Positions 5,873 through 28,975 of a stretch of 40,826 nt of DNA are shown piece after piece (within the stretch, counting starts at the first letter, position 1; each line of letters starts with the position of its first letter). The translations under genes were made by a program, and so were the position numbers. Origin of the DNA: Aliiruegeria lutimaris (lineage in GTDB: Bacteria > Pseudomonadota > Alphaproteobacteria > Rhodobacterales > Rhodobacteraceae); assembly GCF_900099935.1 (NCBI RefSeq), contig NZ_FNEK01000045.1, positions 1-40,826 of the forward strand, written 5' to 3'. The notes under the pieces are model-generated. The model saw only the letters and a program-made list of their open reading frames with translations. It was not told where the DNA came from and made no database searches.

Positions 5873-5910
5873 GCCCCCCGAGGATGTATTTCGAAATAGG
5901 AAGGCGTGGC

Positions 5911-8155: not shown

Positions 8156-8274
8156 CTTTAAATTACCTCGTCTTTTCTGTGTCTTGTGTGGTCTGCAGGG
8201 CATGTGGTTGACGGAATGTCGGCGCGCACCCTACCCTTGAGGCGCGCAAACTGCGAGCAGGAAAGGGAGGAGAC
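8156..8274. promoter_or_regulatory. Divergent promoter region between mrp and the lobe-cytochrome gene
   Basis: A 119-base gap between two diverging genes must hold both promoters. TTGACG near 8212 could be a -35 element for the rightward gene, whose start at 8275 has a strong AAGGGAGGAG site. I see no clear regulator box. Confidence 0.35.
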
Positions 8275-11842: not shown

Positions 11843-12462
11843 CCAGCGGGGATTTCTGGAGCCGCCGAAAGGCAGCGGTCGCGGCGGAGACCGAGGCAGA
11901 ACAGGTCGCATTGCAGGTCGAGCAGGACGAGCAGGCACATGCCGCGCTCGCGGAGCGACCGGACGAGGAGATCCTCGATGAGCTTGGCCTGAAGGATCCC
12001 GATACGCTGGAGGCCGGAGACGATTTTGCCGCTTTCATGAAAGCTGCGGTGCCGGAACGGCTGCGCCGCCGGGCGCTGCGGCGGCTCTGGCTGTCCAACC
12101 CGGCGCTGGCCAATCTCGATGGCATGGTCGATTACGGCGAGGATTTCACGGACGCCGCCATGGTCGTCGCCAACCTCCAGACCTCCTACCAAGTCGGCAA
12201 GGGCATGTTGAAACATGTCGAGGCGCTCGTTGCGCAAGAAGAAGACGCCGAGGGCGTCGCCGATTCGGAGCCCCTCGAAGATGCGCCACTGGAAGATGCT
12301 GTCGCTTTTGCCGACATCCCGGCGGCCGAGCCAACGACCACCCTGTCCGAAACCGACCCGTCCGACACCACGAATGCAACGGAAGAACCGGAGGAAGCCG
12401 ACCTCGCTTCCACCGATGACGCCCCGCTGCCCCGCCGCCGCATGCGCTTTGAATTTACCTGA
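11839..12462 (+). CDS. DUF3306 protein
   Basis: A 207-residue protein starting at TTG 11839, overlapping the DUF3305 stop (TTGA), with GGGGAGG in front. The family hallmark is the start FWSRRKAAV, followed by a segment that turns into PERLRRRALRRLWLSNPALANLDG (positions about 73-96; only its ends are notable) and DYGEDFTDA. The C-terminal 70 residues are acidic and low in complexity and end in a basic RRRMRFEF tail. It is always paired with DUF3305 near FDH genes. Its function is unknown; helping cofactor or subunit assembly is a guess from context. Confidence 0.87.
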   Translation: MTSGDFWSRRKAAVAAETEAEQVALQVEQDEQAHAALAERPDEEILDELGLKDPDTLEAGDDFAAFMKAAVPERLRRRALRRLWLSNPALANLDGMVDYGEDFTDAAMVVANLQTSYQVGKGMLKHVEALVAQEEDAEGVADSEPLEDAPLEDAVAFADIPAAEPTTTLSETDPSDTTNATEEPEEADLASTDDAPLPRRRMRFEFT

Positions 12463-12481
12463 CGAAGAGACCGAAAACCGA

Positions 12482-13087
12482 ATGTCCGCTGCCCAAGATA
12501 TCTCCATTTCGCCAGAGGACCGCCTGCGCGCGGATCTCTACGACTTCCTGAGTGCCCTTCTGGCGGCTCCGCCCGATGCGGCGCTACTGGAGAAGGCCGC
12601 CGCGCTCGGCGGCGATGAGACCGATCTCGGCCGGGCGATCGGAAGCCTGTCCCGCGTTGCGCAGGCGGTGACGCCCAAGGCTGTGGAGTCGGAATTCAAC
12701 GCGCTGTTCATCGGTTTGGGGCGGGGCGAATTGCTGCCCTATGGCTCTTATTACATGACCGGGTTCCTGAACGAGAAGCCGCTGTCCAAGCTGCGAGACG
12801 ACATGGCCGCGCTTCAGATCGCACGGGCGCCGAATGTCTTCGAGCCGGAAGACAATATCGCCAGCCTCATGGAGATGATGGCCGGCATGATCATGGGCCG
12901 CTTCGGCCCGCCAGCTACGTTGGAGCGGCAAAAGGAGTTCTATTTCCGTCACATCGCGCCCTGGGCCAGTCACTTCTTTGGTGACCTCGAGGGCGCGCAG
13001 AATTCGATTCTCTACGCGCCGGTCGGCTCCGTCGGCCGCGCTTTCATGGAGATCGAGAGCCAGGCTTTCCGCATGAGCGGCGAGTGA
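12482..13087 (+). CDS. TorD-family molybdoenzyme chaperone
   Basis: TorD/DmsD-type chaperones bind the Tat signal of a molybdoenzyme and hold it until the cofactor is in place. The 201-residue helical protein starts at ATG 12482 (MSAAQDISISPEDRLRADLY), 19 bases after DUF3306; the ribosome site is weak (GAAGAGA). Family features are FNALFIGLGRGELLPYGSYY in the middle and the C-terminal FYFRHIAPWASHFFGDLE. The open frame extends to 12215, but that part overlaps DUF3306 and has poor codon use. Its client is presumably FdhA or the small Tat peptide, both encoded next. Confidence 0.9.
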   Translation: MSAAQDISISPEDRLRADLYDFLSALLAAPPDAALLEKAAALGGDETDLGRAIGSLSRVAQAVTPKAVESEFNALFIGLGRGELLPYGSYYMTGFLNEKPLSKLRDDMAALQIARAPNVFEPEDNIASLMEMMAGMIMGRFGPPATLERQKEFYFRHIAPWASHFFGDLEGAQNSILYAPVGSVGRAFMEIESQAFRMSGE

Positions 13088-13134
13088 AACCGCAACCGGC
13101 CGGGCAACTGGCCCCCAACCAAGGAGCAAACACC

Positions 13135-13320
13135 GTGCCCGAGCAAGCCAAGGAAACGAACCGCCGCGACTTTCTGAAAGCCGCCGCCCTGTCCGTTCCC
13201 GCTGCTGCCGCCGCTGCCACCGTCGCCCCGCAGGAAGCTGTGGCCGACGAGGTTACCGGCGAGACGCGTATGCAGGACACCGCGCATACCCGCGCCTATT
13301 ACGACACCGCCCGGTTCTAG
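13135..13320 (+). CDS. Small Tat-signal protein of formate dehydrogenase regions
   Basis: A 61-residue protein consisting mainly of a Tat signal: NRRDFLKAAALSVPAAAAA with the RR pair at about residues 10-11. I start at GTG 13135, ten bases after AAGGAG; an in-frame ATG at 13084 overlaps the torD stop and lacks a site of that quality. It belongs to the short family described as the formate dehydrogenase region Tat target, found between the TorD-like gene and fdhA. The mature part is only about 30 residues and polar. Its role is not established; it may assist export or act as a small subunit. Confidence 0.85.
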   Translation: MPEQAKETNRRDFLKAAALSVPAAAAAATVAPQEAVADEVTGETRMQDTAHTRAYYDTARF

Positions 13321-13441
13321 GATTCAGATCGGACAGTGAAAGATAATCCCGACGGCGACTGGTTGCGTGACGTCCGACTGCCCAAGGAAAGAAATTCGTA
13401 CCAAGCGATTCCTGTTTCGGGAGAGCAAGGGAGGGAAAGAA

Positions 13442-16400
13442 ATGCTCAGGAAAAAGACCAACGGGGTTGCGAGACGCCCCCAGCGGACAAGTATCCTCAC
13501 TTCGGCGGCTGAGAAGACCGTCGATCGCCGCACATTTCTGCGCGGCTCCGGTCTGGCCATTGGTGGCCTCGCCGCGTTGGGCGCCACTGGAGGAACGGTA
13601 ACGCGGGCGGATGCCCAGTCGTCCGTGGATGGCGCCGTCCAATCCGTGAAATCCGTCTGTACCCATTGTTCGGTGGGCTGCACGGTTATTGCCGAAGTGC
13701 GAAACGGCGTCTGGATCGGGCAGGAGCCCGGCTGGGACAGCCCGTTCAACCTCGGCTCGCATTGTGCCAAGGGTGCCGCGGTTCGCGAGCACGCCCATGG
13801 CGAGCGCCGGCTCAAGTACCCGATGAAGAAAGAGGGTGGCGAGTGGAAGCGCATCTCCTGGGAGCAGGCGATCAACGAGATCGGCGACGGGATGATGAAG
13901 ATCCGTGAAGAGAGCGGACCTGACAGCGTCTACTGGCTCGGCTCGGCCAAGCACAACAACGAACAGGCCTACCTGTTCCGCAAGTTCGCCGCCTATTGGG
14001 GTACGAACAACGTGGATCACCAGGCCCGTATCTGCCACTCCACCACCGTTGCGGGTGTTGCGAATACATGGGGCTACGGCGCCATGACCAACTCCTACAA
14101 CGACATCCACAATTCCAAGGCGATCTTCATCATCGGCGGCAACCCGGCCGAGGCGCACCCGGTGTCGCTTCTGCACGTGCTGCGGGCGAAGGAGAACAAC
14201 AACGCTCCGCTCATCGTCTGCGACCCGCGCTTCACGCGCACGGCTGCGCATGCCGACGAGTACGTGCGGTTCCGTCCGGGTACCGACGTCGCGCTGGTCT
14301 GGGGCATCCTCTGGCACATTTTCGAGAATGGCTGGGAGGACAAGGAGTTCATCCGCACCCGTGTCTGGGGCATGGACCAGATCAAGGAAGAGGTCGCCAA
14401 GTGGAACCCCGAAGAGGTTGAGCGCGTTACCGGCACGCCGGGCTCGCAGCTCAAGCGGGTTGCCCGCCAGCTTGCCAATAACCGCCCTGGCACCGTGATC
14501 TGGTGCATGGGGGGCACGCAGCACACCAACGGCAACAACAACACCCGCGCCTACTGCATCCTGCAGCTCGCGCTGGGCAACATGGGCACCTCCGGCGGCG
14601 GCACCAACATCTTCCGCGGCCATGACAACGTGCAGGGCGCGACCGATCTCGGCGTGCTGTCGCACACGCTGCCCGGCTATTACGGCCTTGCGGGCGGTGC
14701 CTGGGCACACTGGGCTCGGGTTTGGGGTGAGGATCTCGATTGGCTGAAGGGTCAGTTCGAGACCGTCAAGGGCTCCGACGGCAAGGACAAGAACCTGATG
14801 AACCTGACGGGCATCCCGGTGTCCCGCTGGATCGACGGCGTCCTGGAAGATCCCGAGAACACCGATCAGCCCAACGCGGTGCGTGCCATGGTGCTCTGGG
14901 GTCACGCCCCCAACTCGCAGACCCGGATGCCGGAGATGAAGACGGCGATGGAGAAGCTCGACATGCTCGTCGTGGTGGACCCGTTCCCGACCGTTTCCGC
15001 CGTGCTGCATGACCGCACCGATGGCGTCTACCTGCTGCCGGCCTCGACCCAGTTCGAGACGCGCGGCTCGGTGACGGCCTCCAACCGCTCGATCCAGTGG
15101 CGCGATCAGGTCATGGACCCGCTCTTCGAGAGCCTCCCCGACCACGTTATCATCGCCAAGTTCGCCAATAAGTTCGGTTTCGCAGACCGGTTCTTCCGCA
15201 ATATCGAGATGGAAGACGCCGAGACGCCGAATATCGAAAGCGTGACCCGCGAGTTCAACAGCGGCATGTGGACGGTGGGCTATACCGGGCAGAGCCCGGA
15301 GCGGATCAAGCTGCACATGGCCAACCAGCACACGTTCGACCGGACGACGCTGCAGGCCATTGGCGGCCCGGCCGACGGCGACTACTACGGTATGCCCTGG
15401 CCTTGCTGGGGAACGGCCGAGATGGGCCATCCCGGTACACCGAACCTCTATGACATGTCCAAACCTGTCTCCGAGGGCGGCCTCACGTTCCGTGCCCGCT
15501 TCGGCGTGGAGCGCGATGGCGACAACCTTCTGGCAGAAGGTGTCTATTCGGCGGGTTCCGAGATCCAGGACGGCTATCCCGAGTTCACCATGGCGATGCT
15601 CCATGATCTCGGCTGGGACCAGGACCTGACAAAAGCCGAGTGGGCGGTGATCCAGGCCGTGGCAGAAGGCAGTTTCGAAGGCGTGGAGGCGCTGAACCTG
15701 GCCGATGCGGACTACGAGGATGGCGAGACGCCCGATGCGATCGAGGCGATCTGGTCCACCTCCGGCGAAGCCATCGGCAAGGTCAACTGGAAGACCGACC
15801 TGTCGGGTGGCATCCAGCGGGTCGCGATCGCGCATGAATGCGCGCCCTTCGGCAATGCCAAGGCGCGGGCTGTCGTGTGGACCTTCCCGGATCCGGTGCC
15901 ACTGCACCGCGAGCCGCTCTATACGAACCGGCGGGACCTGGTGGCGGATTATCCGACCTACGAGGACCGGAAGTTCTATCGCCTGCCGACCATGTATGCC
16001 TCGATCCAGAAGAACGACTTCTCCAAGGATTTCCCGATCATCCTCACCTCCGGCCGCCTGGTCGAATATGAAGGTGGGGGCGACGAAACCCGGTCCAACC
16101 CGTGGCTCGCGGAACTCCAGCAGGACATGTTCGTCGAGATCAACCCGAGGGACGCCAACAATCTCGGCGTGCGCGATGGTGCGCAGGTCTGGGTCGAAGG
16201 TCCAGAGGGTGGCAAGGTCAAGGTCATGGCGATGGTCACGCAACGGGTGGGCGAGGGCGTTGCCTTCATGCCCTTCCATTTCGGCGGCCATTTCCAGGGC
16301 ATCGACCAGCGGGACAAATACCCCACGGGCGCGGATCCATACGTGCTGGGCGAGAGTACCAATACTGCCCAGACCTATGGCTACGACTCGGTCACCCAGA

Positions 16401-16444
16401 TGCAGGAGACCAAGGCGACTCTCTGCAAGATTTCGCCGGCATAA
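13442..16444 (+). CDS. fdhA: Formate dehydrogenase catalytic (alpha) subunit, Tat-exported, Cys-type
   Basis: The enzyme oxidises formate to CO2 at a Mo- or W-bis-MGD centre in the periplasm. The 1000-residue protein starts at ATG 13442 after GGGAGGGAAAG. A Tat signal has RRTFLR at 29-34. One [4Fe-4S] cluster is bound by C73, C76, C80 and C108. The metal ligand is C198, followed by H199 (ARICHSTT), in the place where FdnG-type enzymes carry selenocysteine. The C-terminal molybdopterin-binding domain includes ILTSGRLVEYEGGG and FMPFHFGG. No in-frame TGA is present. The nearby tup genes suggest tungsten use, but this is inference. It forms a complex with FdhB and FdhI. Confidence 0.96.
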   Translation: MLRKKTNGVARRPQRTSILTSAAEKTVDRRTFLRGSGLAIGGLAALGATGGTVTRADAQSSVDGAVQSVKSVCTHCSVGCTVIAEVRNGVWIGQEPGWDSPFNLGSHCAKGAAVREHAHGERRLKYPMKKEGGEWKRISWEQAINEIGDGMMKIREESGPDSVYWLGSAKHNNEQAYLFRKFAAYWGTNNVDHQARICHSTTVAGVANTWGYGAMTNSYNDIHNSKAIFIIGGNPAEAHPVSLLHVLRAKENNNAPLIVCDPRFTRTAAHADEYVRFRPGTDVALVWGILWHIFENGWEDKEFIRTRVWGMDQIKEEVAKWNPEEVERVTGTPGSQLKRVARQLANNRPGTVIWCMGGTQHTNGNNNTRAYCILQLALGNMGTSGGGTNIFRGHDNVQGATDLGVLSHTLPGYYGLAGGAWAHWARVWGEDLDWLKGQFETVKGSDGKDKNLMNLTGIPVSRWIDGVLEDPENTDQPNAVRAMVLWGHAPNSQTRMPEMKTAMEKLDMLVVVDPFPTVSAVLHDRTDGVYLLPASTQFETRGSVTASNRSIQWRDQVMDPLFESLPDHVIIAKFANKFGFADRFFRNIEMEDAETPNIESVTREFNSGMWTVGYTGQSPERIKLHMANQHTFDRTTLQAIGGPADGDYYGMPWPCWGTAEMGHPGTPNLYDMSKPVSEGGLTFRARFGVERDGDNLLAEGVYSAGSEIQDGYPEFTMAMLHDLGWDQDLTKAEWAVIQAVAEGSFEGVEALNLADADYEDGETPDAIEAIWSTSGEAIGKVNWKTDLSGGIQRVAIAHECAPFGNAKARAVVWTFPDPVPLHREPLYTNRRDLVADYPTYEDRKFYRLPTMYASIQKNDFSKDFPIILTSGRLVEYEGGGDETRSNPWLAELQQDMFVEINPRDANNLGVRDGAQVWVEGPEGGKVKVMAMVTQRVGEGVAFMPFHFGGHFQGIDQRDKYPTGADPYVLGESTNTAQTYGYDSVTQMQETKATLCKISPA

Positions 16445-16457
16445 GGAGGAATGAAGA

Positions 16458-17051
16458 ATGGCTAGATCCAAGTTTCTCTGCGACGCCGAGCGCTGCATTG
16501 AGTGCAATGCCTGCGTCACGGCGTGCAAGAACGAGCATGAAGTGCCCTGGGGCATCAACCGCCGCCGCGTGGTGACCATCAATGACGGTCAGCCCGGCGA
16601 ACGGTCGATCTCGGTGGCCTGCATGCATTGTTCGGACGCGCCCTGCATGGCCGTCTGCCCGGTGGATTGCTTCTACCAGAACGAGGAAGGGGTCGTGCTT
16701 CACAGCAAGGACCTCTGCATCGGCTGTGGTTATTGCTTCTACGCGTGCCCGTTCGGTGCGCCGCAATACCCGCAGGCGGGCAATTTCGGTTCCCGCGGCA
16801 AGATGGACAAATGCACCTTCTGCGCCGGTGGCCCGGAGGAGACCCACTCGAATGCCGAGTTCTCCAAATACGGCCGCAACCGGATCGCCGAGGGCAAGCT
16901 GCCCATCTGCGCCGAGATGTGTTCCACCAAGGCGCTGCTGGCCGGCGACGGCGATGTCGTCTCCGCCATTTACCGCGAGCGCGTGGTGGCCCGTGGCTTC
17001 GGCTCCGGCGCCTGGGGTTGGGGCACCGCCTACGACCAGAAGGGCGGCTGA
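16458..17051 (+). CDS. fdhB: Formate dehydrogenase iron-sulfur (beta) subunit
   Basis: The 197-residue beta subunit carries electrons from FdhA to the membrane subunit. It has 16 cysteines in four cluster motifs: C13-C16-C19-C23, C55-C58-C63-C67, C87-C90-C93-C97 and C119-C122-C151-C155. This spacing matches FDH/DMSO-reductase-type beta subunits. It has no signal of its own and is expected to ride out with FdhA through Tat. It lacks the C-terminal membrane anchor helix of FdnH. ATG 16458 follows AAGGAGGAATGAAG, 13 bases after the fdhA stop. Confidence 0.95.
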   Translation: MARSKFLCDAERCIECNACVTACKNEHEVPWGINRRRVVTINDGQPGERSISVACMHCSDAPCMAVCPVDCFYQNEEGVVLHSKDLCIGCGYCFYACPFGAPQYPQAGNFGSRGKMDKCTFCAGGPEETHSNAEFSKYGRNRIAEGKLPICAEMCSTKALLAGDGDVVSAIYRERVVARGFGSGAWGWGTAYDQKGG

Positions 17052-17070
17052 GGCCACTTTCCAAAGGTAA

Positions 17071-17122
17071 GGGATGCCCGGCTCGGGCATCCCGCGCGTT
17101 CCCCGGCTCGTACCGGGGAACG
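17071..17122 (+). other. Two consecutive strong hairpins between fdhB and fdhI
   Basis: GGGATGCCCG/CGGGCATCCC (10 bp, 3-nt loop, 17071-17093) is followed at once by CGTTCCCCGG/CCGGGGAACG (10 bp, 6-nt loop, 17097-17122). Neither is followed by a T run, so complete termination is unlikely. In the middle of an operon they could slow decay of the upstream fdhAB message or reduce transcription into fdhI. Confidence 0.75.
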
Positions 17123-17185
17123 TATTGATCCATTTTCATTTCGGGCGTGCTCCTGCGCGCCTCGCAAAACCCGAGTGAGACCCGG

Positions 17186-18424
17186 ATGTCCGAGAGAAAA
17201 AGCGGATTTGGCGGCTTCGTGCTTGTCTTCGCGATCATCGTGATAGCGGCCTTCGTTCTGAGCCTGTTTGCGCCGAATTCCGACCAGACCGACCCCGCCA
17301 CGCTGCAGGCTGCCCGCGAAGCGACCGGCGGCGCGCAGACCCGCGAAGACATCATGGCTCGCCAGCGCGGCGAGCAGGTGGACCTCGATTTCCGCCGGCA
17401 GGCGCTGGGTGACCCGTCACAGGCCGCTGACATCACCGGCCAGCTTGGCACGCTTGGGGGCGTTTCGGACGCCGAGATGTTCCGCGCCCTGCGCTATGGC
17501 ACGGCCGATGTGACCGCCTCCGCCAGCACGCCGGGCGCCGATGTTCTCATTCAGGATGGCGGCATGCACTGGCTGATCCTGCGCGACTACCGGCTGGCCA
17601 AATATGGCGGCTGGCTGCTTTTGGGCATGATCGGCTTGCTGGCCGTGGTTCTCCTGCTGTTCGGCCGTGTGCCGATTGCCGGTGAACGTACCGGCCGCAC
17701 GATCCTGCGTTTCGGCCATTTCGACCGCTGGATGCACTGGACCACTGCCGGTTCCTTTGTGCTTCTCGGCCTCACGGGACTCGTCTCAATGTATGGCCGT
17801 CCCTTCCTGATCCCGATCATGGGAAAGGAGGCCCATGCCACGCTCGCCCTCTGGTCCAAGCTGATCCACAACAATGTCAGTTGGGCCTTCATGTTGGGGG
17901 TGACGCTGATTTTCTTCAAATGGGTTCGCTACAACATCCCCAACTGGAACGACGTCAAATGGCTGATGGTGTTTGGCGGGCTGTTCGACCATTCGATCCA
18001 CCCGCCGGCGGGCAAGTTCAATGCCGGCCAGAAGCTGATCTTCTGGTCTGTCATCGCGCTGTCCATCGCCATCGTGGCGAGCGGGCTGAGCTTGCTCATG
18101 CCCTTCAACGCTCCGGTCTTCACGCCCGTCTTTGCCTGGATCAACGATACCGGCCTGCTCGGCACGCTTGGCCTGTCCAATCTGCCCACCCCGCTCGCCC
18201 CGCAGCAGGAGATGCAATACACGCAGCTCTTCCACGCGTCTGTCGCCTTTGGCTTCATGGCGATGATCATCGGCCATATCTATATCGGCACGGTTGGCAT
18301 GGAGGGCGCCTTCGACGCAATGGGCACGGGCTATGTCGAGGAGCAATGGGCGCGCGAACACCATTCGATCTGGCTTGACGAGGTAAAGGCCAAGGAGGCC
18401 GCCTCGCAGGCACCCGCCGAATAG
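17186..18424 (+). CDS. fdhI: Formate dehydrogenase cytochrome b (gamma) subunit
   Basis: The membrane subunit takes electrons from FdhB and passes them to quinone through b hemes. I start at ATG 17186 (412 residues); the frame stays open to 17147 without a good site. Residues about 10-29 form one membrane helix, then a periplasmic region of about 100 residues, then about five helices, beginning with GGWLLLGMIGLLAVVLLLFG. Candidate heme histidines lie in FGHFDRWMHWTT and in FHASVAFGFMAMIIGHIYIG. The soluble insert between helix 1 and helix 2 makes it longer than E. coli FdnI (217 residues), as is common for the FDH3-type gamma subunit. Confidence 0.92.
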   Translation: MSERKSGFGGFVLVFAIIVIAAFVLSLFAPNSDQTDPATLQAAREATGGAQTREDIMARQRGEQVDLDFRRQALGDPSQAADITGQLGTLGGVSDAEMFRALRYGTADVTASASTPGADVLIQDGGMHWLILRDYRLAKYGGWLLLGMIGLLAVVLLLFGRVPIAGERTGRTILRFGHFDRWMHWTTAGSFVLLGLTGLVSMYGRPFLIPIMGKEAHATLALWSKLIHNNVSWAFMLGVTLIFFKWVRYNIPNWNDVKWLMVFGGLFDHSIHPPAGKFNAGQKLIFWSVIALSIAIVASGLSLLMPFNAPVFTPVFAWINDTGLLGTLGLSNLPTPLAPQQEMQYTQLFHASVAFGFMAMIIGHIYIGTVGMEGAFDAMGTGYVEEQWAREHHSIWLDEVKAKEAASQAPAE

Positions 18425-19723
18425 ATGCTGCGCGCGGCTTTGATCGCCGGGCTCTCGCTTGCCCCGCCACTGGCCGGGGCGGGAGAGTTCTTCACGCTTG
18501 AAGGCCATGGCGGGCCGGTCAAGGGCATCGCAGCCGGGCCGCAGGGAGAGATCCTGACCGCGAGCTTCGACAATTCGGTCGGGCTATGGCGCGGTGGCGA
18601 ACCGCTCTGGCTGGAGGGGCACGCGGCCGCGGTGAACACGGTGGCCTTTGTCGATTCCAACCGTGCCGTCTCGGCGGGCGATGATTTCGCGCTCTTCCTG
18701 TGGAACCTTGAGACAGGGCAGGGGCAACGGCTGGGCAGCCACAAGGGCAAAGTCATGTCGCTGGCGGTCTCGCCCGGCGGACAGACGATCGCCTCGGCGA
18801 GCTGGGATGGCTCCATCGGCATTTGGGATCTTGAGGATCCGGGCGTCGAGGCGCGTTTCTTCACCGGACACGATGCCGGCGTGAACGCGGTGGCCTTTTC
18901 CGAGGATGGCGAGACGCTCTATTCCGGCTCTGCCGATGGCACGCTCCGGCTCTGGCGCGTGGCCGATGGCACCGCGCTTGGGCAACTGGCCAATAACGGC
19001 TTCGGGATCAACACGCTGGTGCTCAACGAGACCGCTGGTTGGATCGCCTATGGCGGGGTCGATGGCGCGACCAAGGCGCTCTCGCTGTCCGACGGCTCGG
19101 TGATTGCAGACCTCACTCTGGACCGCCGCCCGATCCTTGGTATGGCTCCCGGACCCGGAAAGCGCCTGCTCGCTGTGGGCGATGGTGAGGGGTATATCTC
19201 GCTGATCGACACCGAAACCTGGCGCTTCACGCTCGATTTTCGCGCCACCCTGCGTGGCCCCGTCTGGGCGCTGGCCTTCTCGCCTGATGGCGGGAATGTC
19301 CACGCCGGCGGGTTGGACGATGCGATGTTCTCCTGGCCGGTGGAAGGCGCGGGCGAACGGCCGCAGATGGTCGAGGGCGAACGCAGTTTCCTCGCCAGCG
19401 GCGATGATGTTTCCAACGGCGAGCGACAGTTCCAGCGCAAATGCTCGATCTGCCATACGCTTGGTCCCGGGGAAAATCGCCGCGCCGGGCCGAGTCTGCA
19501 TGCGCTGTTCGGGCGCCGCGCCGGGACCGTGCCGGGCTACAGCTATTCCGAGACCCTGGAAGATTCCGAGATCGTCTGGGGGCCGGAAACGATTGATGCG
19601 CTGTTCGACCTTGGGCCCGAGGTCTATGTCGCGGGAACGAAAATGCCGATGCAGAGGATCGTCAAGGCGCAGGACCGGGCCGACCTGGTCGATTTCCTGC
19701 GCGAGGCGACCCGGGGAGAGTAA
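18425..19723 (+). CDS. WD40 beta-propeller fused to a C-terminal cytochrome c
   Basis: The 432-residue exported protein starts directly after the fdhI stop (TAGATG). A signal peptide covers about 1-19. About seven WD40-like repeats fill residues 22-305, marked by LEGHAAAV, GSHKGKVMSL, TGHDAGVNAV and the strand ends SVGLW, ALFLW, SIGIW and TLRLW. A class I cytochrome c follows, with CSICH (C340-C343-H344) and the methionine ligand in GTKMPM (M407 or M409). The fusion directly behind the membrane subunit suggests a periplasmic electron acceptor or a docking partner of the formate dehydrogenase. The specific redox partner is not known. Confidence 0.9.
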   Translation: MLRAALIAGLSLAPPLAGAGEFFTLEGHGGPVKGIAAGPQGEILTASFDNSVGLWRGGEPLWLEGHAAAVNTVAFVDSNRAVSAGDDFALFLWNLETGQGQRLGSHKGKVMSLAVSPGGQTIASASWDGSIGIWDLEDPGVEARFFTGHDAGVNAVAFSEDGETLYSGSADGTLRLWRVADGTALGQLANNGFGINTLVLNETAGWIAYGGVDGATKALSLSDGSVIADLTLDRRPILGMAPGPGKRLLAVGDGEGYISLIDTETWRFTLDFRATLRGPVWALAFSPDGGNVHAGGLDDAMFSWPVEGAGERPQMVEGERSFLASGDDVSNGERQFQRKCSICHTLGPGENRRAGPSLHALFGRRAGTVPGYSYSETLEDSEIVWGPETIDALFDLGPEVYVAGTKMPMQRIVKAQDRADLVDFLREATRGE

Positions 19724-21238: not shown

Positions 21239-22657
21239 TCAATTGGCTCCCAGGACGTTCCCCGCGCCCGAATTGAGCGCGTCGAGCGCGGCTCGCCGCC
21301 CGGAGAATTGTTTTCTTGCATTCTGGTAGGCTTCGCGTGCCTTTTCCGTCTGCCCGAGATTGACATAGGAGCGCACGAGCATGATCCAGCCGTCGAGGTT
21401 GTCCGGGTTTTCTTCGAGCTTCGCGGCGAGCCCGGCGACCATGCCGTCGATCATTTCGTCCTGCTCGTCGCGGCTAAGCTGAGAGATCGCGGCGACCTGT
21501 TCAGCGTCCGGGCCGGACACGCCGGGGCCACGGTCGAGCATGTCAAGCCCGAGGGCGCGGGCGGTTTCTTCGAATTTCTGCAGCACGAAGGGCGCGGCTC
21601 GGAAATGGTTCCGGCCTTCATCGAGCGCGGCGAGCGCGCCGTCGCTGTCGCCAGCGCCCGATCGCAAGGTGGCCAGTTCGATCCAAGCCTTGTAATCGGC
21701 GGGGTCGGCGGCAAGGCCCGCTTCGAGTTCGGCGATACGCGTCGTGCTGTCCACCGGGGCCGTGTCGCCGGACGCCGCAATCTCGGCCGGGGTGGCGTCA
21801 GGAAGATAGGTACGAAGATCCTGTTTGAGAAACCGCGCCATGTTGACCATGTCGCGACGCACCATCGGGATCCAGCCGGCGCCCTCGGGCGAGTCTGCAA
21901 GCAGCATGCCCCAATCTTCGAGCGCACCCTGGAAATTCTGCGCCTGCGCCTTGGCCAGCGCCAAGTAGTATCGGGCACGTGGTTCCGGTGTCGTCGCAAG
22001 CACTTGCTCGAAGATGATCCGAGCCGCTGGCGGGACCTTGTTGCCATTGGCCTTGGTCATGGCCTCGGCATAGCTGGAGAGCACCTCGGGGTCGTTCTCC
22101 GACAACTCGGCAGCGCGGCCATAGGCTTCGGCTGCTGCGCCCAGGTCGCCGACAGCCGTGTAGGACTTGGCAAGCAACCACCAGGTGTCGAGATCCTCGG
22201 GGGTCTGCTCGGCGGCATCGACCAACAGTTGTATGGAGCTAGCAATACTGCCGGCGGCGGCCTGTTGGGTGAGCATCTCCGAGCGGCGTGCGGCGAACGG
22301 CTGATTCGGTGCTTCGGGCGTGCCGAGCGCGAGATAGCTGCCGAGCGCGGCCAGGATGACCATCGCGGAAATGCTCAGAGCGGCGGGCACGGAGCGATGG
22401 CTCATGAAAAAGCCCTGATCCATGCGGCGCGCGGCGGCGAGCGCGCGGCGTTCAATCTCCTGCCGGGCGGCGTCGCATTCGACGGGGCTGATGAGACCGG
22501 CCTCGCGGTCGCGTTCGACCTCGTCGAGTTGGTCGCGATAGATCGAGATCGTGCTGTCGGCAGCTTCCATTTCCATGGCGCCTCGGCGCAGGAAGGGGTG
22601 GGCGATCCAGAACCCGCAAAGGATGACGAGAAGCGTGGCGACTGCCCAGAAGATCAT
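21239..22657 (-). CDS. ccmI: c-type cytochrome biogenesis protein CcmI (NrfG/CycH-like)
   Basis: CcmI presents apocytochrome c to the CcmF-CcmH heme ligation complex. The 472-residue protein has an N-terminal membrane helix (about 1-18), a coiled segment SIYRDQLDEVERDREAGLI, a second helix around 89-108, and a periplasmic TPR region (about 120 to the end) with units such as DLGAAAEAYGRAAEL and LGQTEKAREAYQNARK. This is the CcmI1/CcmI2 layout. It overlaps ccmH by four bases (ATGA). It is the last gene of the fnr-ccmF-ccmH-ccmI operon. Confidence 0.9.
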   Translation of the reverse strand: MIFWAVATLLVILCGFWIAHPFLRRGAMEMEAADSTISIYRDQLDEVERDREAGLISPVECDAARQEIERRALAAARRMDQGFFMSHRSVPAALSISAMVILAALGSYLALGTPEAPNQPFAARRSEMLTQQAAAGSIASSIQLLVDAAEQTPEDLDTWWLLAKSYTAVGDLGAAAEAYGRAAELSENDPEVLSSYAEAMTKANGNKVPPAARIIFEQVLATTPEPRARYYLALAKAQAQNFQGALEDWGMLLADSPEGAGWIPMVRRDMVNMARFLKQDLRTYLPDATPAEIAASGDTAPVDSTTRIAELEAGLAADPADYKAWIELATLRSGAGDSDGALAALDEGRNHFRAAPFVLQKFEETARALGLDMLDRGPGVSGPDAEQVAAISQLSRDEQDEMIDGMVAGLAAKLEENPDNLDGWIMLVRSYVNLGQTEKAREAYQNARKQFSGRRAALDALNSGAGNVLGAN

Positions 22658-23154
22658 GAACGGGTCTCCTCCAGTAGGCGGCGGGCTTCGGCCGTCTCTT
22701 CCTCGGTCAGTTGAGGCAGCGGATTGGCCGGTTTCGGGCGTCCTCGCAGGTAGCTGAACATGGCGAGCGCGCCGAGAGCAATGAAGCCTATCGGAGCAAG
22801 CCAGAGCAGGGTCGTCTGGGCGGAAACGGGCGGTTCCAGCAGGACATAATCGCCGAAGCGGGAGCGGACATATTCAAGCACTTCCGCGTCGGAGTCGCCC
22901 GCCACCATGCGTTCACGCACGACGACGCGGAGATCACGGGCGAGCCCGGCATTGGAATCGAAGATCGACTGGTTCTGGCAGACAAGGCAGCGAAGCTCGC
23001 GGCCGATATCGCGGGCGCGGGCTTCCTTTGCCGGATCGTCGAACATTTCGGCGGGATCGAGCGCAAGCGCTGTCGTGGCAAATAGACACAGGCTGGTGGC
23101 AAGCAGTGCAGATCGAAACCCGCGCGCGTTTCTGTCATTTCGACCGTATTGCAT
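22654..23154 (-). CDS. ccmH: c-type cytochrome biogenesis protein CcmH (Ccl2/NrfF-like)
   Basis: CcmH handles the reduced CXXCH cysteines of apocytochromes before heme attachment. The 166-residue protein has a signal or anchor at about 12-31, the hallmark RCLVCQNQSI (C56, C59) and a C-terminal membrane helix (TLLWLAPIGFIALGALAMF). It is the short, single-domain form as in Rhodobacter Ccl2, without a fused TPR domain, which is supplied by CcmI. ATG 23154 is nine bases after ccmF and follows AGGATACGAG. The conserved cysteines are intact. Confidence 0.93.
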   Translation of the reverse strand: MQYGRNDRNARGFRSALLATSLCLFATTALALDPAEMFDDPAKEARARDIGRELRCLVCQNQSIFDSNAGLARDLRVVVRERMVAGDSDAEVLEYVRSRFGDYVLLEPPVSAQTTLLWLAPIGFIALGALAMFSYLRGRPKPANPLPQLTEEETAEARRLLEETRS

Positions 23155-23163
23155 TCTCGTATC

Positions 23164-25140
23164 CTACTCCGCGGGTTGCGCGGCCGGCCTGCGCGGCGCG
23201 GGGGCACCGATGCGCAGGCGGCGGTCGGCGAGCGAGATCAGCGCCGCGACTGTGATCAGCAGTGCGCCGGTCCACATCCATGGAACGCCGGGGTTGTAGT
23301 AGTAGCGGGTGACATAACCGCCGCGCCCGTTGGCGTCGCCCAGAACGGCATATAGGTCGCCATGCCAGAGCGTCTCGATGGCGGCCTCGGTCGTCGGTTG
23401 CCGCTCCACCGGGTAGAAGCGCCGCTCGGGCTCCAGCGTGGTCACATGAATGCCGTTCCGGGTGACATCGACCTTGGCAAAGGTAGTCTGGTAATTCGGG
23501 CCGTTGCCGGAGCGCACGTCATGCAACGTGAATTCATACGGGCCGACGGAGACGGGCGTCCCGGCGGTCACGGTCTGGATGGCTTCGGTACTCCAGACCG
23601 AAACGGCGATGACACCCGCCGCGGCAATGGCGAGGCCCGCATGGCCGATATACAGGCCATAGGCCGAAGCGGGCAGGCCGGCGGCGCGCCTAAGCGCGGT
23701 GAGCGCGCTTGCCTTCGGCAGTCCGATGCGGCGGGCGTAATCGAGCAGCGTGGCGGTGGCGAGGAAGCTCGCGATGAAAGCGCCGAGCAGGCCGACGGCG
23801 TCGCGCAACCCGAGCCCGAGCGCGAGCGCGGCGGTGATGGCCAGAGCCAGTCCGGTTGTCAGCGTGCTCCGCCGGATCACGTCCGCCCGGTTGGCACGTT
23901 TCCACGCCATGAAGGGGCCGATGCCGGCGATCAGCATGGTGAAACCGAAGATCGGCAGGAAGGTCTTGTTGAAATACGGCGCGCCGACCGAGATCTTCGA
24001 GCCGTTCAGCAACTCGAGGAAGAGCGGGTAGAGCGTGCCGACAAAGACCACGCCACAGGCTGCCACCAGCAGCAGGTTGTTCAGCAGCAAACCTGTTTCG
24101 CGCGAATAGAGCGCGAAGACCCCGCCATCGCTCAACTTCGGCGCGCGCCAGACATAAAGCGAGAGCGCGCCGCCAATGGCGAGAGTCAGCAATAGCAGGA
24201 TGAAGGCGCCGCGTTCGGGATCCGTCGCGAAGGCATGGACGGAGGTCAGGATGCCGGAGCGGACGAGGAAGGTGCCGATCAGCGACAGCGAGAAGGTCAG
24301 GATCGCCAGCAGGATGGTCCATTTCAGCAGCGCGTTGCGCTTCTCGACCACGATTGCCGAATGCAGCAGCGCGGTTCCGATGAGCCAGGGCATGAACGAG
24401 GCGTTTTCCACCGGGTCCCAGAACCAGAAGCCCCCCCAGCCCAGCTCGTAATAGGCCCACCAGGAGCCGAGCGCGATGCCGGCGGTGAGGCCCGACCATG
24501 CGAGCAATACCCAAGGGCGCATCCAGCGCGCCCAGGCGGGGTCCACCCGGCCGGTGATGAGGGCCGCGACGGCAAAGGAGAAGGCGGTCGAGAAGCCGAC
24601 ATAGCCCAGGTAAAGCAGCGGCGGGTGAAAGGCGACGCCGGGGTCCTGCAGGAGCGGGTTCATGCCCTGCCCATTGATCGGCGCATTGGCGAGCCGCTCG
24701 AACGGGTTGGAGGTGAGCAGGATGAACGCGTAGAAGCCGACGCCGATCATCGCCTGCACCGCGAGCACGGTGGCGCGCATGACGACCGGAATGACGCCGC
24801 CGAAAACCGAGATCAGCACCCCGAAAAGCGACAGCATCAGCACCCAGAGCAGCATCGAGCCCTCGTGGTTGGCCCAAACGCCGGAGACTTTGTAGAGCAT
24901 CGGCTTGGAGGAGTGCGAATTGGCCGCGACGGTCATGACGGAGAAGTCCGAGACCACGAACGCCCAGGTCAGCGCGCCAAAGGCCAGTGCGGTGCCGAGG
25001 AACTGGACCTGTGCCGCGGTATCGGCGGTTCTCATCGCGGCGGGCGAACCATGCGCGGTGCCCCAGAGCGGCACGGTGGCCTGTACAACTGCCGCGATCA
25101 GGGCAATGCAGAGGGCAAGATGCCCAAGCTCGACAATCAT
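23164..25140 (-). CDS. ccmF: Heme lyase CcmF (Ccl1/NrfE-like)
   Basis: CcmF joins heme to apocytochrome c on the periplasmic side of the membrane. The 658-residue polytopic protein (about 15 helices) has the tryptophan-rich WWD signature GWGGFWFWDPVENASFMPWL at about residues 222-241 and the periplasmic region before the last helix. The length is usual for full CcmF. It overlaps the end of the FNR-type gene (ATGA), so both are co-translated. ccmE is absent upstream, whereas in many Rhodobacterales the housekeeping ccmF follows argC-ccmE. This points to a second, dedicated copy, though that is an inference. Confidence 0.94.
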   Translation of the reverse strand: MIVELGHLALCIALIAAVVQATVPLWGTAHGSPAAMRTADTAAQVQFLGTALAFGALTWAFVVSDFSVMTVAANSHSSKPMLYKVSGVWANHEGSMLLWVLMLSLFGVLISVFGGVIPVVMRATVLAVQAMIGVGFYAFILLTSNPFERLANAPINGQGMNPLLQDPGVAFHPPLLYLGYVGFSTAFSFAVAALITGRVDPAWARWMRPWVLLAWSGLTAGIALGSWWAYYELGWGGFWFWDPVENASFMPWLIGTALLHSAIVVEKRNALLKWTILLAILTFSLSLIGTFLVRSGILTSVHAFATDPERGAFILLLLTLAIGGALSLYVWRAPKLSDGGVFALYSRETGLLLNNLLLVAACGVVFVGTLYPLFLELLNGSKISVGAPYFNKTFLPIFGFTMLIAGIGPFMAWKRANRADVIRRSTLTTGLALAITAALALGLGLRDAVGLLGAFIASFLATATLLDYARRIGLPKASALTALRRAAGLPASAYGLYIGHAGLAIAAAGVIAVSVWSTEAIQTVTAGTPVSVGPYEFTLHDVRSGNGPNYQTTFAKVDVTRNGIHVTTLEPERRFYPVERQPTTEAAIETLWHGDLYAVLGDANGRGGYVTRYYYNPGVPWMWTGALLITVAALISLADRRLRIGAPAPRRPAAQPAE

Positions 25141-25913
25141 TTGGGAACCTCGTGCAGAATGCTCGGGCCGCCGGGGACCACTTCGGAACGATAGACTTGT
25201 GGCGTCGGAATGGCGACCGGCAGGCGGCGGTCGAGTTCGGCAAGGTCGGGAATGATGAATTCGGAGGGCGAGAGGAATTTCACCAGCTTGGATTTCTTGA
25301 GCCGCGACAGGATCCTGCTGACGGTCTCCGAGTTCAGCCCGAGATAGTCGGCGATATCCTCGCGCGACATCGGCAGGGAGACGACCGGCTGTGTCTCGAG
25401 CGTGGCGCCGGCCCGCGCCGCCATTTCGGCGAGAAACAGCGTCACCCGCTCAACCGAGTCCAGCCGGCCGAGCGTGGTCAGGTGCGACTGGGAACGTTCG
25501 AGGCGGCGGTGCACCACATGGAAGGAGAGGGCGAGGAAAGCCGGGTCCGCATGGAGCTCCTTGGCGCGTGTCCCGAGGTCGATCTCGCAGATCAGGCAGT
25601 CGCTCAGTGCTTCGAGCCAGTTCTGGGTGCCGGGCCCGGCCATAAGCGAGCAGATCGTCTCGCCCTTGGTCTCAAGGCTCACGATCTGCCGTCGTCCGTC
25701 TGCGAATGACGTGCAGGAGGCGGCAGTGCCATGCACCACGATCCAGAACTTCAAGCAGGCATTGCCCTCGTTTGCATCCAGCCGGTCACCGCGCTTGAGC
25801 GCATGTTTGACCCGGATTGCATTCTCAGGCTGCGGCGGCAGAAACGTGCACATCACCTGTTGGCAGGAGCCGCACTTCGACGAGCCGTCGACGACGTTGT
25901 GTTTTCTCAACAT
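25137..25913 (-). CDS. FNR-type transcriptional regulator with four candidate [4Fe-4S] cysteines
   Basis: A 258-residue Crp/Fnr-family regulator. The N-terminus has C14-x2-C17-x4-C22, and a central cysteine, C109 in LICEIDL, aligns with C122 of E. coli FNR, so an oxygen-labile cluster is likely, although the N-terminal spacing is one shorter than in FNR (x5). The HTH (about 182-205: MSREDIADYLGLNSETVSR) carries E196, S199 and R200, the FNR contacts for TTGAT half-sites. The ATG at 25913 has no clear ribosome site. It is co-transcribed with the heme-lyase genes and divergent from the multiheme cytochrome gene. It probably controls both. Confidence 0.9.
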   Translation of the reverse strand: MLRKHNVVDGSSKCGSCQQVMCTFLPPQPENAIRVKHALKRGDRLDANEGNACLKFWIVVHGTAASCTSFADGRRQIVSLETKGETICSLMAGPGTQNWLEALSDCLICEIDLGTRAKELHADPAFLALSFHVVHRRLERSQSHLTTLGRLDSVERVTLFLAEMAARAGATLETQPVVSLPMSREDIADYLGLNSETVSRILSRLKKSKLVKFLSPSEFIIPDLAELDRRLPVAIPTPQVYRSEVVPGGPSILHEVPK

Positions 25914-25979
25914 TATTTTGCACTGTTCGCGAGTTCGGAAAGCTTTTGACTTTAGTACAGTTCGAAAGGGTGCCGTGCC

Positions 25980-25993
25980 TTGCTCTGGATCAA
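25980..25993. promoter_or_regulatory. FNR-like box (TTGCT-CTGG-ATCAA)
   Basis: TTGCTCTGGATCAA matches the FNR consensus TTGAT-4-ATCAA at nine of ten positions and lies in a longer dyad (CCTTG...CAAGG). It is 66 bases upstream of the FNR-type gene and 170 bases upstream of the multiheme cytochrome gene, in the 250-base divergent gap. The recognition residues E-xx-SR of the neighbouring regulator fit this site, so autoregulation plus control of the cytochrome is plausible. Confidence 0.6.
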
Positions 25994-26163
25994 GGCTTCA
26001 AGGGATTTCCTGTCAAAGCGCTACGATTCGACGGTCTGCAGCGATTGCAATCAGTAAGCATTCCAGTTTTGGCAAGTGTTTTAAACCTGACAAATGTCAG
26101 GGAACGGTCGTTCACGTCCGCGTTATCTGGGGTCAGAAGTCTATTTTTCAGCCAGGGGAGGAC

Positions 26164-28542
26164 ATGTTCGTGAGACGCATATTCCTGATACTGACCCTGC
26201 TTCTTGGGTCCGCCGGCTTCGCGGTGGCCCAGGATAACGCGGCGGCGGAAGCCGAACCGATGACGGTCAGTGCCGAGCTGGCAGCCGAAAAGGGCTGCCT
26301 TTCATGCCATGAAGGCATCGAGAAATTCACCGAAGGCGTCATGATGGAGACCATCGAGGCGCTGGGCGGCGACTATGACGATGCAGCTGGCTGTACCGTC
26401 TGTCACGGCGGCAACGTGCTTGGTACCACGGTCGACGAGGCCCATTCCGGTGCACATGCCACGATGATCGAAGACGGTGGCCCGCAGATGTTCTACCCCG
26501 ATCCCGGCTCCGTCTGGATTGCGGACAACACCTGTGGCCAGTCCGGTTGTCACGAGGGTTATGCCGAGCGTCTGACCAAGTCGCTGATGAACACCGAGGC
26601 CGGCAAGTTGCAGGGCAACCTGTGGTCCTGGGGCGTGCTCGACACGCATCGCTCGGTCTACGGCAACTATGACCTGGTGGACGAGGACGGCTATGTCCCG
26701 ACCGTCGGTACGGATGCCTACAAGGAATACATGGTCGCCTTTGCCGAGTCGCACCCCGACCAGATGCCTGACTCGATGGAGCAGGTGCCTGAAGTGGATG
26801 TCGACCAGATTTCCGAGCACCCGAATCTTGCCGGTATCACCTATTCGCGCCAGCAATGTCAGCGGTGCCACGTTGGCGTGAACGGTCGCGAAAAGCGTGG
26901 TGACTACCGCGGCGCCGGCTGCTCCTCCTGCCACGTTCCCTATTCGAACGAGGGCTTCTACGAGGGCAGCGACCCGACCATTGCCAAGGACCAGCCCGGC
27001 AAGCTGCTGACGCACCAGTTGCAGGCCACGCGCAAGTCCAAGGTCAAGCATGGCGATCTGGAGTATTCCGGTATTCCGAACGAGACCTGCTCCTCCTGCC
27101 ACAACCGCGGCAAGCGGATCGGCGTGAGCTACCAGGGTATCATGGAATTCCCGTATGGGTCGCCCTACAGCCCGACCGGTGGCAAGCAGCCTGCGCTGCA
27201 CACCAAGAACTACCTGTTCATCAAGGACGACCTGCACCATCAGGTCCAGTCGCGCGAAGGCAACCCCGACGGCGGTATGCTTTGCCAGGACTGCCACACC
27301 ACCGTGGACATGCACGGCGACGGCAACATGCCCGGCACGACCCTTGCCCAGGTGGAGATTGAGTGCGAGGACTGCCACGGCACCGTTGGCCAGTTCCCGT
27401 GGGAGCTGCCGCTGGGCTATGGCGAAGAGTTCCAGCAGGAAATCGCTGCGGATGCGCGCGGCCTTGCCGACGACATCACCGATGAGCAGTACTTTGCGCA
27501 GGTCTATGACGCAGAGGACGGCTACTTGCTGACCGCACGCGGCAACCCGTTCGGCAACGTGGTGAAGAAGGGCTCCAAGGTCATTCTGCACTCCGCGTCC
27601 GGTATCGACTTCGAGATTCCGGTGCTGAAGCAGATCGCGATGGACGGCACCTGGAAGTCGCCGAACGCCGAAGTGGCCATGATGTCGGTTGGCAAGCACA
27701 TGGAAAGCATGGAATGCTATGCCTGTCACGCCGACTGGGCGCCGCAATGCTACGGCTGCCACATCACCGTGGACTATTCGGAAGGCAAGACGGATGTCGA
27801 CTGGATCACCAATGCCAATGCGCGTGAGCCCAACGGTCTGACGGCGGATGCGCCGCTCGGCACCAACGGTCTGACGAGCGCCGGCAAGGTCTCCGAGACA
27901 CGCTCCTACCTGCGTTGGGAAGAGCCGACCCTCGGGATCAACGGTGAAGGCCGCGTTTCGCCGCTCATGCCGGGCTGCCAGGTCATCACCACGGTGATCG
28001 ACAAAGAGGGCAACACGGTTGCGCATAACGAGATCTGGATGACGCCGGATGCCGGTGGCACCAAAGGCCTCGACCATGCCGCCGTGCAGCCGCACACGGC
28101 TGGCCGTCTGGCACGGACCTGCGAGAGCTGCCACAACAACCCGAAGGCGCTGGGCTATGGCATCAGCGGCGGTCGTTTCCTGAGCGACTATACCAAGGGC
28201 TTCGTGGTGGATCTGGAAACCGCTGGCGGGGAAATCATCCCGGGTCAGCACCAGTTCCAGTCGCAACCGATTCCGGAACTCGACCACGATCTCAGCCGGA
28301 TCGTGACCGAGGATGGGCAGCAGCTCGTGACCATCGGGTCGCACTGGCCGCTGACCGGTCCGCTGCCGCAGGAGATGCGCCAGAAGATGGAGCGCACCGG
28401 CCTGTGTATGGGTTGCCACCAGAACATGACGAACGAAGAGCTGTGGAATAAGGTCAACAGCCCCGAATTCGTCAACAACGAAGAGCACCAGGATGTGATG
28501 GATCAGGCGATCCACGCCCTGGCCGAAAAGAAATCCGAGTAA
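26164..28542 (+). CDS. Twelve-heme-motif c-type cytochrome (11 CXXCH + 1 CX4CH)
   Basis: A 792-residue exported protein; the signal peptide is about 1-22. I start at ATG 26164 after GGGGAGG; the frame is open to 25402 but overlaps the divergent gene. Heme motifs start at C45, C77, C124 (CGQSGCH, a CX4CH motif), C232, C253, C309, C374, C401, C518, C529, C653 and C748. There is one further cysteine, C605. No CX15CH or CXXCK site is seen. I do not recognise a named family; it is not a typical HAO, OTR or NrfA. Possible roles are a multiheme reductase of a nitrogen or sulfur oxyanion or an electron conduit. Divergent from fnr-ccmFHI and followed by a Rap1a-like gene. Confidence 0.9.
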   Translation: MFVRRIFLILTLLLGSAGFAVAQDNAAAEAEPMTVSAELAAEKGCLSCHEGIEKFTEGVMMETIEALGGDYDDAAGCTVCHGGNVLGTTVDEAHSGAHATMIEDGGPQMFYPDPGSVWIADNTCGQSGCHEGYAERLTKSLMNTEAGKLQGNLWSWGVLDTHRSVYGNYDLVDEDGYVPTVGTDAYKEYMVAFAESHPDQMPDSMEQVPEVDVDQISEHPNLAGITYSRQQCQRCHVGVNGREKRGDYRGAGCSSCHVPYSNEGFYEGSDPTIAKDQPGKLLTHQLQATRKSKVKHGDLEYSGIPNETCSSCHNRGKRIGVSYQGIMEFPYGSPYSPTGGKQPALHTKNYLFIKDDLHHQVQSREGNPDGGMLCQDCHTTVDMHGDGNMPGTTLAQVEIECEDCHGTVGQFPWELPLGYGEEFQQEIAADARGLADDITDEQYFAQVYDAEDGYLLTARGNPFGNVVKKGSKVILHSASGIDFEIPVLKQIAMDGTWKSPNAEVAMMSVGKHMESMECYACHADWAPQCYGCHITVDYSEGKTDVDWITNANAREPNGLTADAPLGTNGLTSAGKVSETRSYLRWEEPTLGINGEGRVSPLMPGCQVITTVIDKEGNTVAHNEIWMTPDAGGTKGLDHAAVQPHTAGRLARTCESCHNNPKALGYGISGGRFLSDYTKGFVVDLETAGGEIIPGQHQFQSQPIPELDHDLSRIVTEDGQQLVTIGSHWPLTGPLPQEMRQKMERTGLCMGCHQNMTNEELWNKVNSPEFVNNEEHQDVMDQAIHALAEKKSE

Positions 28543-28551
28543 TATCGGAAC

Positions 28552-28580
28552 GCCCGGCCGCTCCTCGCGGGTGGCCGGGC
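28552..28580 (+). other. Hairpin between the multiheme cytochrome and the Rap1a-like gene
   Basis: GCCCGGCC pairs with GGCCGGGC around a 13-nt loop, followed by TTGTCTCTTG, not a clean T run. In a 67-base gap between two same-strand genes it may be a weak terminator or attenuator that lowers the downstream gene. Confidence 0.5.
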
Positions 28581-28609
28581 TTGTCTCTTGAACTCGGGGG
28601 AACACCGAC

Positions 28610-28975
28610 ATGCGCAAGACCTTGATCTTCACACTTGCCGCCATGGGGCTGGCCACGGTTGCCGCGGCGGATTCCCACATGGCTTCCGGCTACAGCGCCA
28701 AAGACCTGCTTCAACCCTGTTTCGACGCGGATAATGACGCCCGTGACGGCATCTTCGCAGAGATCGAATGCGAGCAATACATGCTTGGCTTCGTCGGAGC
28801 GCTGAAGGCAGCCGGTGCGATGGATGGCATCTGTCTGCCGGAACAGAACGTCGCCGATGAGGTGCGTTGGTCCTATATGCGCTGGATCCACGAATCCTAC
28901 ACCGCGCGCACGAAGCTTGCGGCCGAAGACGCCGTGTTTGGCTCGCTAAAGGACAATTTCGGCTGCTCGAACTGA
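28610..28975 (+). CDS. Rap1a/Tai-like periplasmic protein
   Basis: A 121-residue exported protein starting at ATG 28610 after GGGGGAAC. The signal peptide is about 1-20 (RKTLIFTLAAMGLATVAAA). The mature domain has the spacing of the Rap1a/Tai family: LLQPC (about residue 36), IECEQYMLGFVGA, a GICLPEQNV segment, and the final FGCSN, so four cysteines that would form two disulfides. In Serratia the family member is an immunity protein against a T6SS amidase; most stand-alone copies are of unknown function. No effector is adjacent here. Co-transcription with the multiheme cytochrome suggests a periplasmic helper, but that is a guess. Confidence 0.75.
   Translation: MRKTLIFTLAAMGLATVAAADSHMASGYSAKDLLQPCFDADNDARDGIFAEIECEQYMLGFVGALKAAGAMDGICLPEQNVADEVRWSYMRWIHESYTARTKLAAEDAVFGSLKDNFGCSN

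Follow-up and report, generated by a model that had tools for sequence, protein, structure and literature searches.

The analyzed stretch of Aliiruegeria lutimaris DNA (40,826 nt; hereafter the window) contains a cassette in which four minus-strand genes, fnr-ccmF-ccmH-ccmI, are divergent from a plus-strand gene for a 12-heme c-type cytochrome, as determined by translation and profile searches. The cytochrome gene (26164..28542, plus strand; ATG at 26164, stop at 28542) encodes 792 residues, and its translation contains 11 CXXCH heme sites and one CX4CH site (C124-H130; 26533..26553, plus strand). Downstream lies a gene for a small Rap1a-domain protein of 121 residues (28610..28975, plus strand; profile score 33.2 bits, cut-off 27.7). 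By eye, the N termini of the two plus-strand products look signal-like. Upstream of the cytochrome, a divergent gap of 250 bases (25914..26163, by translation) holds an FNR-like box (25980..25993; 9/10 positions against the FNR consensus). Across this gap is fnr (25137..25913, minus strand), identified by profiles and alignment as encoding a Crp/FNR-family regulator with an N-terminal cysteine cluster (C14/C17/C22) and a further cysteine, C109. It is followed by a ccmF paralogue (23164..25140, minus strand; profiles and tree), ccmH (22654..23154, minus strand; LRCLVCQ motif in the translation, profile) and ccmI (21239..22657, minus strand; profiles), whose product is a TPR protein and, by homology, an apocytochrome chaperone. 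Four-base overlaps join fnr to ccmF and ccmH to ccmI, and 9 bases separate ccmH from ccmF.

An earlier interpretation made from the letters alone (the sequence-only reading) had described this chain facing the cytochrome over 250 bases, as well as the 11 CXXCH sites and the single CX4CH site, and translation and profiles bear out both descriptions. The span it gave, 25137-28975, omitted ccmF, ccmH and ccmI (21239-25140, minus strand) and took in the Rap1a open reading frame (ORF; 28610-28975) without naming it. It also saw no ccmA-E or ccmG in the window. In agreement, tblastn with the CcmA, B, C, D, E and G of relatives found none of these genes in the window, the only matches being two ABC ATPases (30-35% identity) from the CcmA query.

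The host genome (5.81 Mb, 193 contigs, estimated 100% complete) holds a second CcmF and CcmH on contig 64 and a second CcmI on contig 137, so the window does not carry its only ccmF/ccmH/ccmI set, a point on which the sequence-only reading had made its case depend. ccmA, ccmB, ccmC and ccmG lie on contig 121 (tblastn), and a single CcmE is encoded on contig 151. Because there is a second ccmF/ccmH/ccmI but only one ccmE, the window genes constitute an extra CcmFHI lyase set, and the single CcmE suggests that this module would have to share its heme supply. The module has the features of a CcmFHI heme lyase: the WWD-type motif and histidines in CcmF, LRCxxC in CcmH, and the N-terminal domain and TPR region in CcmI. 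The WWD-type motif and four histidines of CcmF are kept in 31/31 module rows. We therefore refer to the module as a predicted System I heme-lyase complex, whose products would assemble and attach heme.

We analyzed the best 80 of 127 relatives of the cytochrome found by scanning genome contigs, comprising 48 near and 32 distant loci. The near loci are mostly alphaproteobacterial; five are otherwise labelled, including Chromatiales, Thiotrichales, Dehalococcoidia and Thermus/Deinococcus metagenome-assembled genomes (MAGs). The distant loci belong to Chloroflexota, Desulfobacterota-type lineages and one planctomycete. The full divergent fnr-ccmF-ccmH-ccmI module was present in 30/48 near loci. 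Upstream sequence of 5 kilobases (kb) or more is available for only 38 of these loci, which makes 30/38 the fair count, and this frequency indicates a linkage beyond chance. The start of a divergent module is visible before the contig end in two loci, L023 and L054, the latter with fnr-ccmF-ccmH. A relative of the Rap1a-domain protein lies downstream of the cytochrome in 46/48 near loci, suggesting that this small protein is a member of the system, possibly a subunit or chaperone of the cytochrome. Beyond the cassette, the most frequent neighbor among the best 28 families listed for 40 near loci was an ABC ATPase in 8 loci, followed by a LysR-like family (by eye) in 6; many listed families are antisense ORFs.

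The cytochrome also occurs with maturation genes in other arrangements. In L038 and L053, a ccm operon that holds the sole CcmF found in the genome has fnr, the cytochrome and the small gene between its ccmC and ccmE (CcmE was named by Pfam, the other genes partly by reading and tblastn). In L037, ccmI alone is present, downstream of the cytochrome, and is the sole ccmI found in that genome. L033 and L045, with shorter upstream sequence, likewise have ccmI alone downstream of the cytochrome. No ccm match was observed at L032, L035, L036, L041 and L043, of which L036 keeps fnr. Mapping the module label onto the cytochrome tree takes five changes, of which starred branches force four or more; the module has thus been gained or lost more than once.

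The sequence-only reading had proposed testing co-occurrence, and in a family sample of 394 genomes this was near-exact: the cytochrome was found in 8 genomes, the module CcmI in 9 and both in 8. In a class sample of 385 genomes, the cytochrome was found in 4. CcmI matches were found in 18/385 genomes, and two of these (G000, G254) were full-length and high-scoring, both with the cytochrome. The other 16 matches (140-172 bits, partial) probably represent ordinary CcmI, as we read them. G619, another class-sample genome with the cytochrome, is apparently the same record as L054, judging by coordinates. Counts in both samples are of species, not of independent events.

CcmF number and phylogeny were consistent with a separate lyase. 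Two or three CcmFs were found in 26/27 genomes searched among module-bearing relatives; in A. lutimaris the two are 53% identical. Eleven near genomes having the cytochrome without a divergent module (G023, G024, G026, G027, G028, G029, G031, G032, G033, G034 and G039, some with short upstream sequence) contain zero or one CcmF each. G030 (L039, upstream sequence missing) yielded two CcmF fragments. We built the CcmF tree that the sequence-only reading had suggested (72 CcmFs; quick maximum likelihood, no bootstrap), and the module CcmFs formed one clade (31/31 rows; Shimodaira-Hasegawa-like approximate likelihood ratio test 100) apart from 38 other CcmFs. The CcmF of L054, from another cytochrome locus, is sister to this clade (support 98). 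Against two NrfE-named profiles, the window CcmF scored below the cut-off of TIGR03145 (620 vs 927.3) and above that of PRK10369 (465.8 vs 394), with no ordinary CcmF as a control.

The tree also contains a third CcmF clade from Rhodobacteraceae-type genomes (6 rows, support 100; L106, L117, L119, L121, L124 and L097). At L117, L119, L121 and L124, this ccmF is accompanied by ccmG-, ccmH- or ccmI-like ORFs near a response regulator and a sensor kinase (by eye). No multiheme cytochrome was present in the stretch around these four genes.

We assessed the regulator and the gap at 38 loci that retain both; this set includes L036, L038, L040, L048 and L053, which have fnr and either no divergent ccm or too little sequence. 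The regulator cysteines were conserved (C14 in 30/38, C17 in 33/38, C22 in 34/38 and C109 in 35/38 rows). An N-terminal cysteine cluster with an internal fourth cysteine is the pattern of [4Fe-4S] FNR proteins. The regulator scored far below curated cut-offs for FixK (79 vs 300 bits), FnrL (65 vs 300 bits) and Fnr (55 vs 228 bits). TTGN8CAA was found in 30/38 divergent gaps, including that of the window, compared to a mean of 1.8 and a maximum of 7 in mononucleotide shuffles. In 23/38 gaps, no more than one of the 10 positions departs from the consensus TTGATN4ATCAA (shuffles, mean 0.18, maximum 3). The regulator would carry an oxygen-sensitive cluster and may sense oxygen, and the module and the cytochrome are probably under low-oxygen control.

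The sequence-only reading had offered the CX4CH site as one possible reason for a private lyase, and this idea did not hold. Among module loci, CX4CH occupies the third heme site only in the window and six close relatives (7/33), and the same site is CXXCH in 26/33, and we therefore rejected CX4CH as an explanation of the module. The remaining 11 sites are CXXCH in all readable module rows, except at one site of an aberrant row, L051. Of 31 readable distant loci, 8 have CX4CH as their first heme site, and L066 has it as its third. No module match was obtained at any of these nine; seven of them have 5 kb upstream, all seven being first-site loci, and L066 has only 0.7 kb of upstream sequence. 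A hidden long-spacer heme motif was also rejected, because all 12 CH pairs of the window cytochrome are used by CXXCH or CX4CH. The sole remaining cysteine, C605, is not a credible part of such a motif: it is invariant in 79/79 covering rows, including loci without the module. NrfA as a hidden client was rejected too, since no convincing NrfA was found in 29 genomes; two matches covered no more than 43 and 58 of the 438 positions of the profile, and one of them scored 24.2 bits against a cut-off of 24.1; MccA/SirA were not searched for. With CXXCH at every readable site in most module loci, the private lyase is not accounted for by an odd motif, and something other than an odd heme site probably explains it.

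The cytochrome itself is, by homology and its 12 heme sites, assigned to an ExtM-related superfamily. It scored 221.4 bits against the ExtM profile NF040943, below the equivalog threshold of 800, with homology spanning ~450 residues. The family is strongly conserved across phyla: most of the Chloroflexota cytochromes (L055 onward) share 53-59% identity with that of the window. An AlphaFold2 model was of middling quality (predicted local distance difference test 68.7, predicted template modeling score 0.72), and Foldseek gave no match in the PDB at E 0.001 or better; PDB sequence searches returned nothing convincing. At the Desulfobacterota locus L085, the cytochrome is preceded by a tetraheme cytochrome, an Fe-S protein resembling DsrO (162 bits, below the 200 cut-off) and a membrane protein resembling DsrP (384 bits, above the 350 cut-off), and families related to these neighbors recur in 6-8 distant loci. 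Such neighbors suggest that electrons are exchanged with the quinone pool and that the cytochrome might act as a reductase. The cytochrome may be a terminal reductase or an electron relay in low-oxygen respiration, a weaker suggestion than those made on the module, its regulator and the small protein. To our knowledge, no function has been assigned to this cytochrome family.

Taken together, we consider it likely that the cassette encodes an oxygen-regulated System I heme-lyase module that is specific for one ExtM-related client protein and not for an odd motif. The FNR-type regulator and the shared divergent promoter would control the extra CcmF-CcmH-CcmI together with the exported client and its Rap1a-domain partner. 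Heme would be drawn from the shared CcmABC/CcmE supply of the genome. The module CcmI would bind the 12-heme apocytochrome and pass it to the module CcmFH, which would attach heme at ordinary CXXCH sites. Specificity would then reside in the client chain, read by the TPR chaperone, and not in the heme motif, and the module may act only or mainly on the 12-heme cytochrome. The sequence-only reading had also raised a module dedicated to the whole protein under low oxygen; the second lyase set, the separate CcmF clade, the co-occurrence and the FNR features all support that version.

The proposed role of CcmI draws on several arrangements. CcmI and SirG have published roles as apocytochrome chaperones (PMC6976685). 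In Chloroflexota and Planctomycetota, a TPR protein is encoded downstream of the cytochrome on the same strand in 22/23 loci with room (L055-L079, L083), and the match begins within 450 bases in 20 loci; two of the 22 loci supplied the queries, and the survey had no control for the chance frequency of TPR genes. Three further loci had no room. The planctomycete match is only 28% identical, and two Chloroflexota TPR proteins have an N-terminal hydrophobic stretch by eye. These loci, together with those having ccmI alone and the known chaperone roles, point to a TPR chaperone as the specific part, and suggest that CcmI is the specificity factor. A broader generalization is possible, though we consider it doubtful: System I lyases could specialize for a client protein and not for a heme motif, and a client-specific TPR adaptor, CcmI or another TPR protein, would on several independent occasions have become linked to one deeply conserved 12-heme cytochrome family, whether in a complete CcmFHI module under FNR control, as a lone CcmI, within a whole ccm operon or as a TPR protein in Chloroflexota.

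Several observations weigh against a module dedicated to this cytochrome. The sequence-only reading had regarded cytochromes commonly lacking the module as evidence against it, and this is in part what we found: compared to 30/38 near loci with the module, 8/38 with 5 kb upstream have the cytochrome without a divergent module, and none of the 32 distant loci gave a module match, 18 of them with 5 kb upstream. Of the eight near loci, L038 and L053 lie in the sole ccm operon, L037 has ccmI alone, and L032, L035, L036, L041 and L043 have no ccm match. L040, one of the ten near loci with less upstream sequence, has fnr with no ccmF match in 3.2 kb upstream. One module genome, the 2.8 Mb MAG G038 (L051), shows one CcmF only, and its cytochrome reads as disrupted near its end. 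No CcmF match was found in 5/44 genomes searched (L033, three Desulfobacterota-type loci and the planctomycete locus; completeness not given), so such a cytochrome can exist without CcmF. Conversely, G244 (L139) has the module ccmF (76% identical), ccmH and ccmI with no cytochrome in the genome and no fnr match in the 19 kb stretch around these genes; loss of the cytochrome or a different client is possible. Across 23 genomes, cytochrome and module CcmF distances were weakly correlated (Spearman 0.38), compared to 0.33 for the cytochrome and housekeeping CcmF and 0.76 for the two CcmFs. These distances do not support tight co-evolution of the cytochrome with the module CcmF. The L056 TPR protein scored 31.5 bits on a CcmI-type TPR profile with a cut-off of 42. 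A review states that System I recognizes little beyond CXXCH (PMC3601427).

Some of these data would also fit a general low-oxygen boost, in which a second CcmFHI adds to the total heme-lyase capacity of the cell, serves every anaerobic cytochrome and is simply parked beside this one. The FNR-type regulator with its FNR-like box, the intact key residues of the module CcmF and the retention of the module by G244 agree with a boost. However, a booster should not track one rare protein, and 8 of the 9 family genomes with the module CcmI among 394 also have the cytochrome. We consider a general boost unlikely. It is less probable still that the cytochrome and ccm genes simply move as a cassette with no functional specificity. 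Such hitch-hiking would account for the sporadic distribution (8/394 family and 4/385 class genomes) and the weak distance correlation, but not for the conservation of an FNR-like box in the shared gap or for a cytochrome tied to maturation genes in several different arrangements. An NrfEFG-like lyase for an atypical CX4CH site, to which CX4CH in the window and six close relatives and the split result on the two NrfE-named profiles would lend themselves, is strongly contradicted by CXXCH at that site in most module loci and by distant CX4CH cytochromes with no module match, and we find it highly improbable.

The dedicated module resembles known systems in part. In Shewanella oneidensis, SirEFG/SirEFGH is a CcmF/CcmH/CcmI-type set beside SirA, with the SirR regulator under CRP (PMC6976685). 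Like SirEFG, the window has an extra set of this type adjoining one multiheme protein, with its own regulator. SirA has a CX12NKGCH site, whereas the window cytochrome family has CXXCH in most module loci and so no conserved atypical heme motif of the kind that marks SirEFG clients; the regulator in the window is of the FNR type and divergently encoded, and the window lacks a ccmG/sirH-like gene. In Escherichia coli, NrfEFG are CcmF/CcmH/CcmI paralogues serving NrfA at a CXXCK site (PMC12285233). The window likewise pairs such paralogues with one multiheme cytochrome; it differs in that, as noted, no convincing NrfA was found in the 29 genomes, and its CcmF falls on opposite sides of the two NrfE cut-offs. 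In anaerobic methanotrophic archaea (ANME), a CcmF2 clade always adjoins MHC-B, and dedication was proposed from size or modified motifs (PMC9012536). Both cases pair a CcmF paralogue clade with one large multiheme cytochrome; unlike the archaeal CcmF2 with its S-layer cytochrome, the window has a CcmFHI set and its own FNR-type regulator. ExtM of the Geobacter sulfurreducens ext cluster has 12 hemes and a mass of 68.3 kDa, and it was an extI mutant, and not ExtM, for which that study demonstrated the selenite/tellurite phenotype (PMC5877670). The window cytochrome shares the 12 hemes and the ~450 residues of homology; it is longer than ExtM, under the equivalog cut-off, and no ext porin or rhodanese was seen adjoining it.

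Elsewhere in the window, positions 1-18424 contain formate dehydrogenase genes, FdhD/MobA/MobB/MoeA-like ORFs and a putative tungstate transporter, mostly named from translations; the alpha subunit was the sole product profiled. Adjoining the formate dehydrogenase genes, 18425-19723 encodes a WD40 beta-propeller fused to a monoheme cytochrome c domain.

Dedicated heme lyases are already known: NrfEFG for CXXCK, SirEFG for CX12NKGCH and, as proposed, CcmF2 by ANME MHC-B. The experimentally studied ones considered here, NrfEFG, SirEFG, NrfI and CcsA1, are explained by an odd heme-binding motif (PMC6976685, PMC12285233). The window module differs from these in a client with CXXCH sites in most module loci, in an FNR-type regulator of its own that accompanies the CcmFHI set at the shared gap, and in the relation of the client to ExtM. 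The sequence-only reading knew of no described system with this exact make-up, and none turned up among the open-access titles and abstracts listed, which leave subscription papers and preprints outside their coverage. Several named strains among the relatives, including the module carriers Roseibium aggregatum and Tropicimonas isoalkanivorans, make the case testable. A dedicated lyase set beside a cytochrome of mostly ordinary sites would thus be a testable case for what else a System I lyase recognizes.

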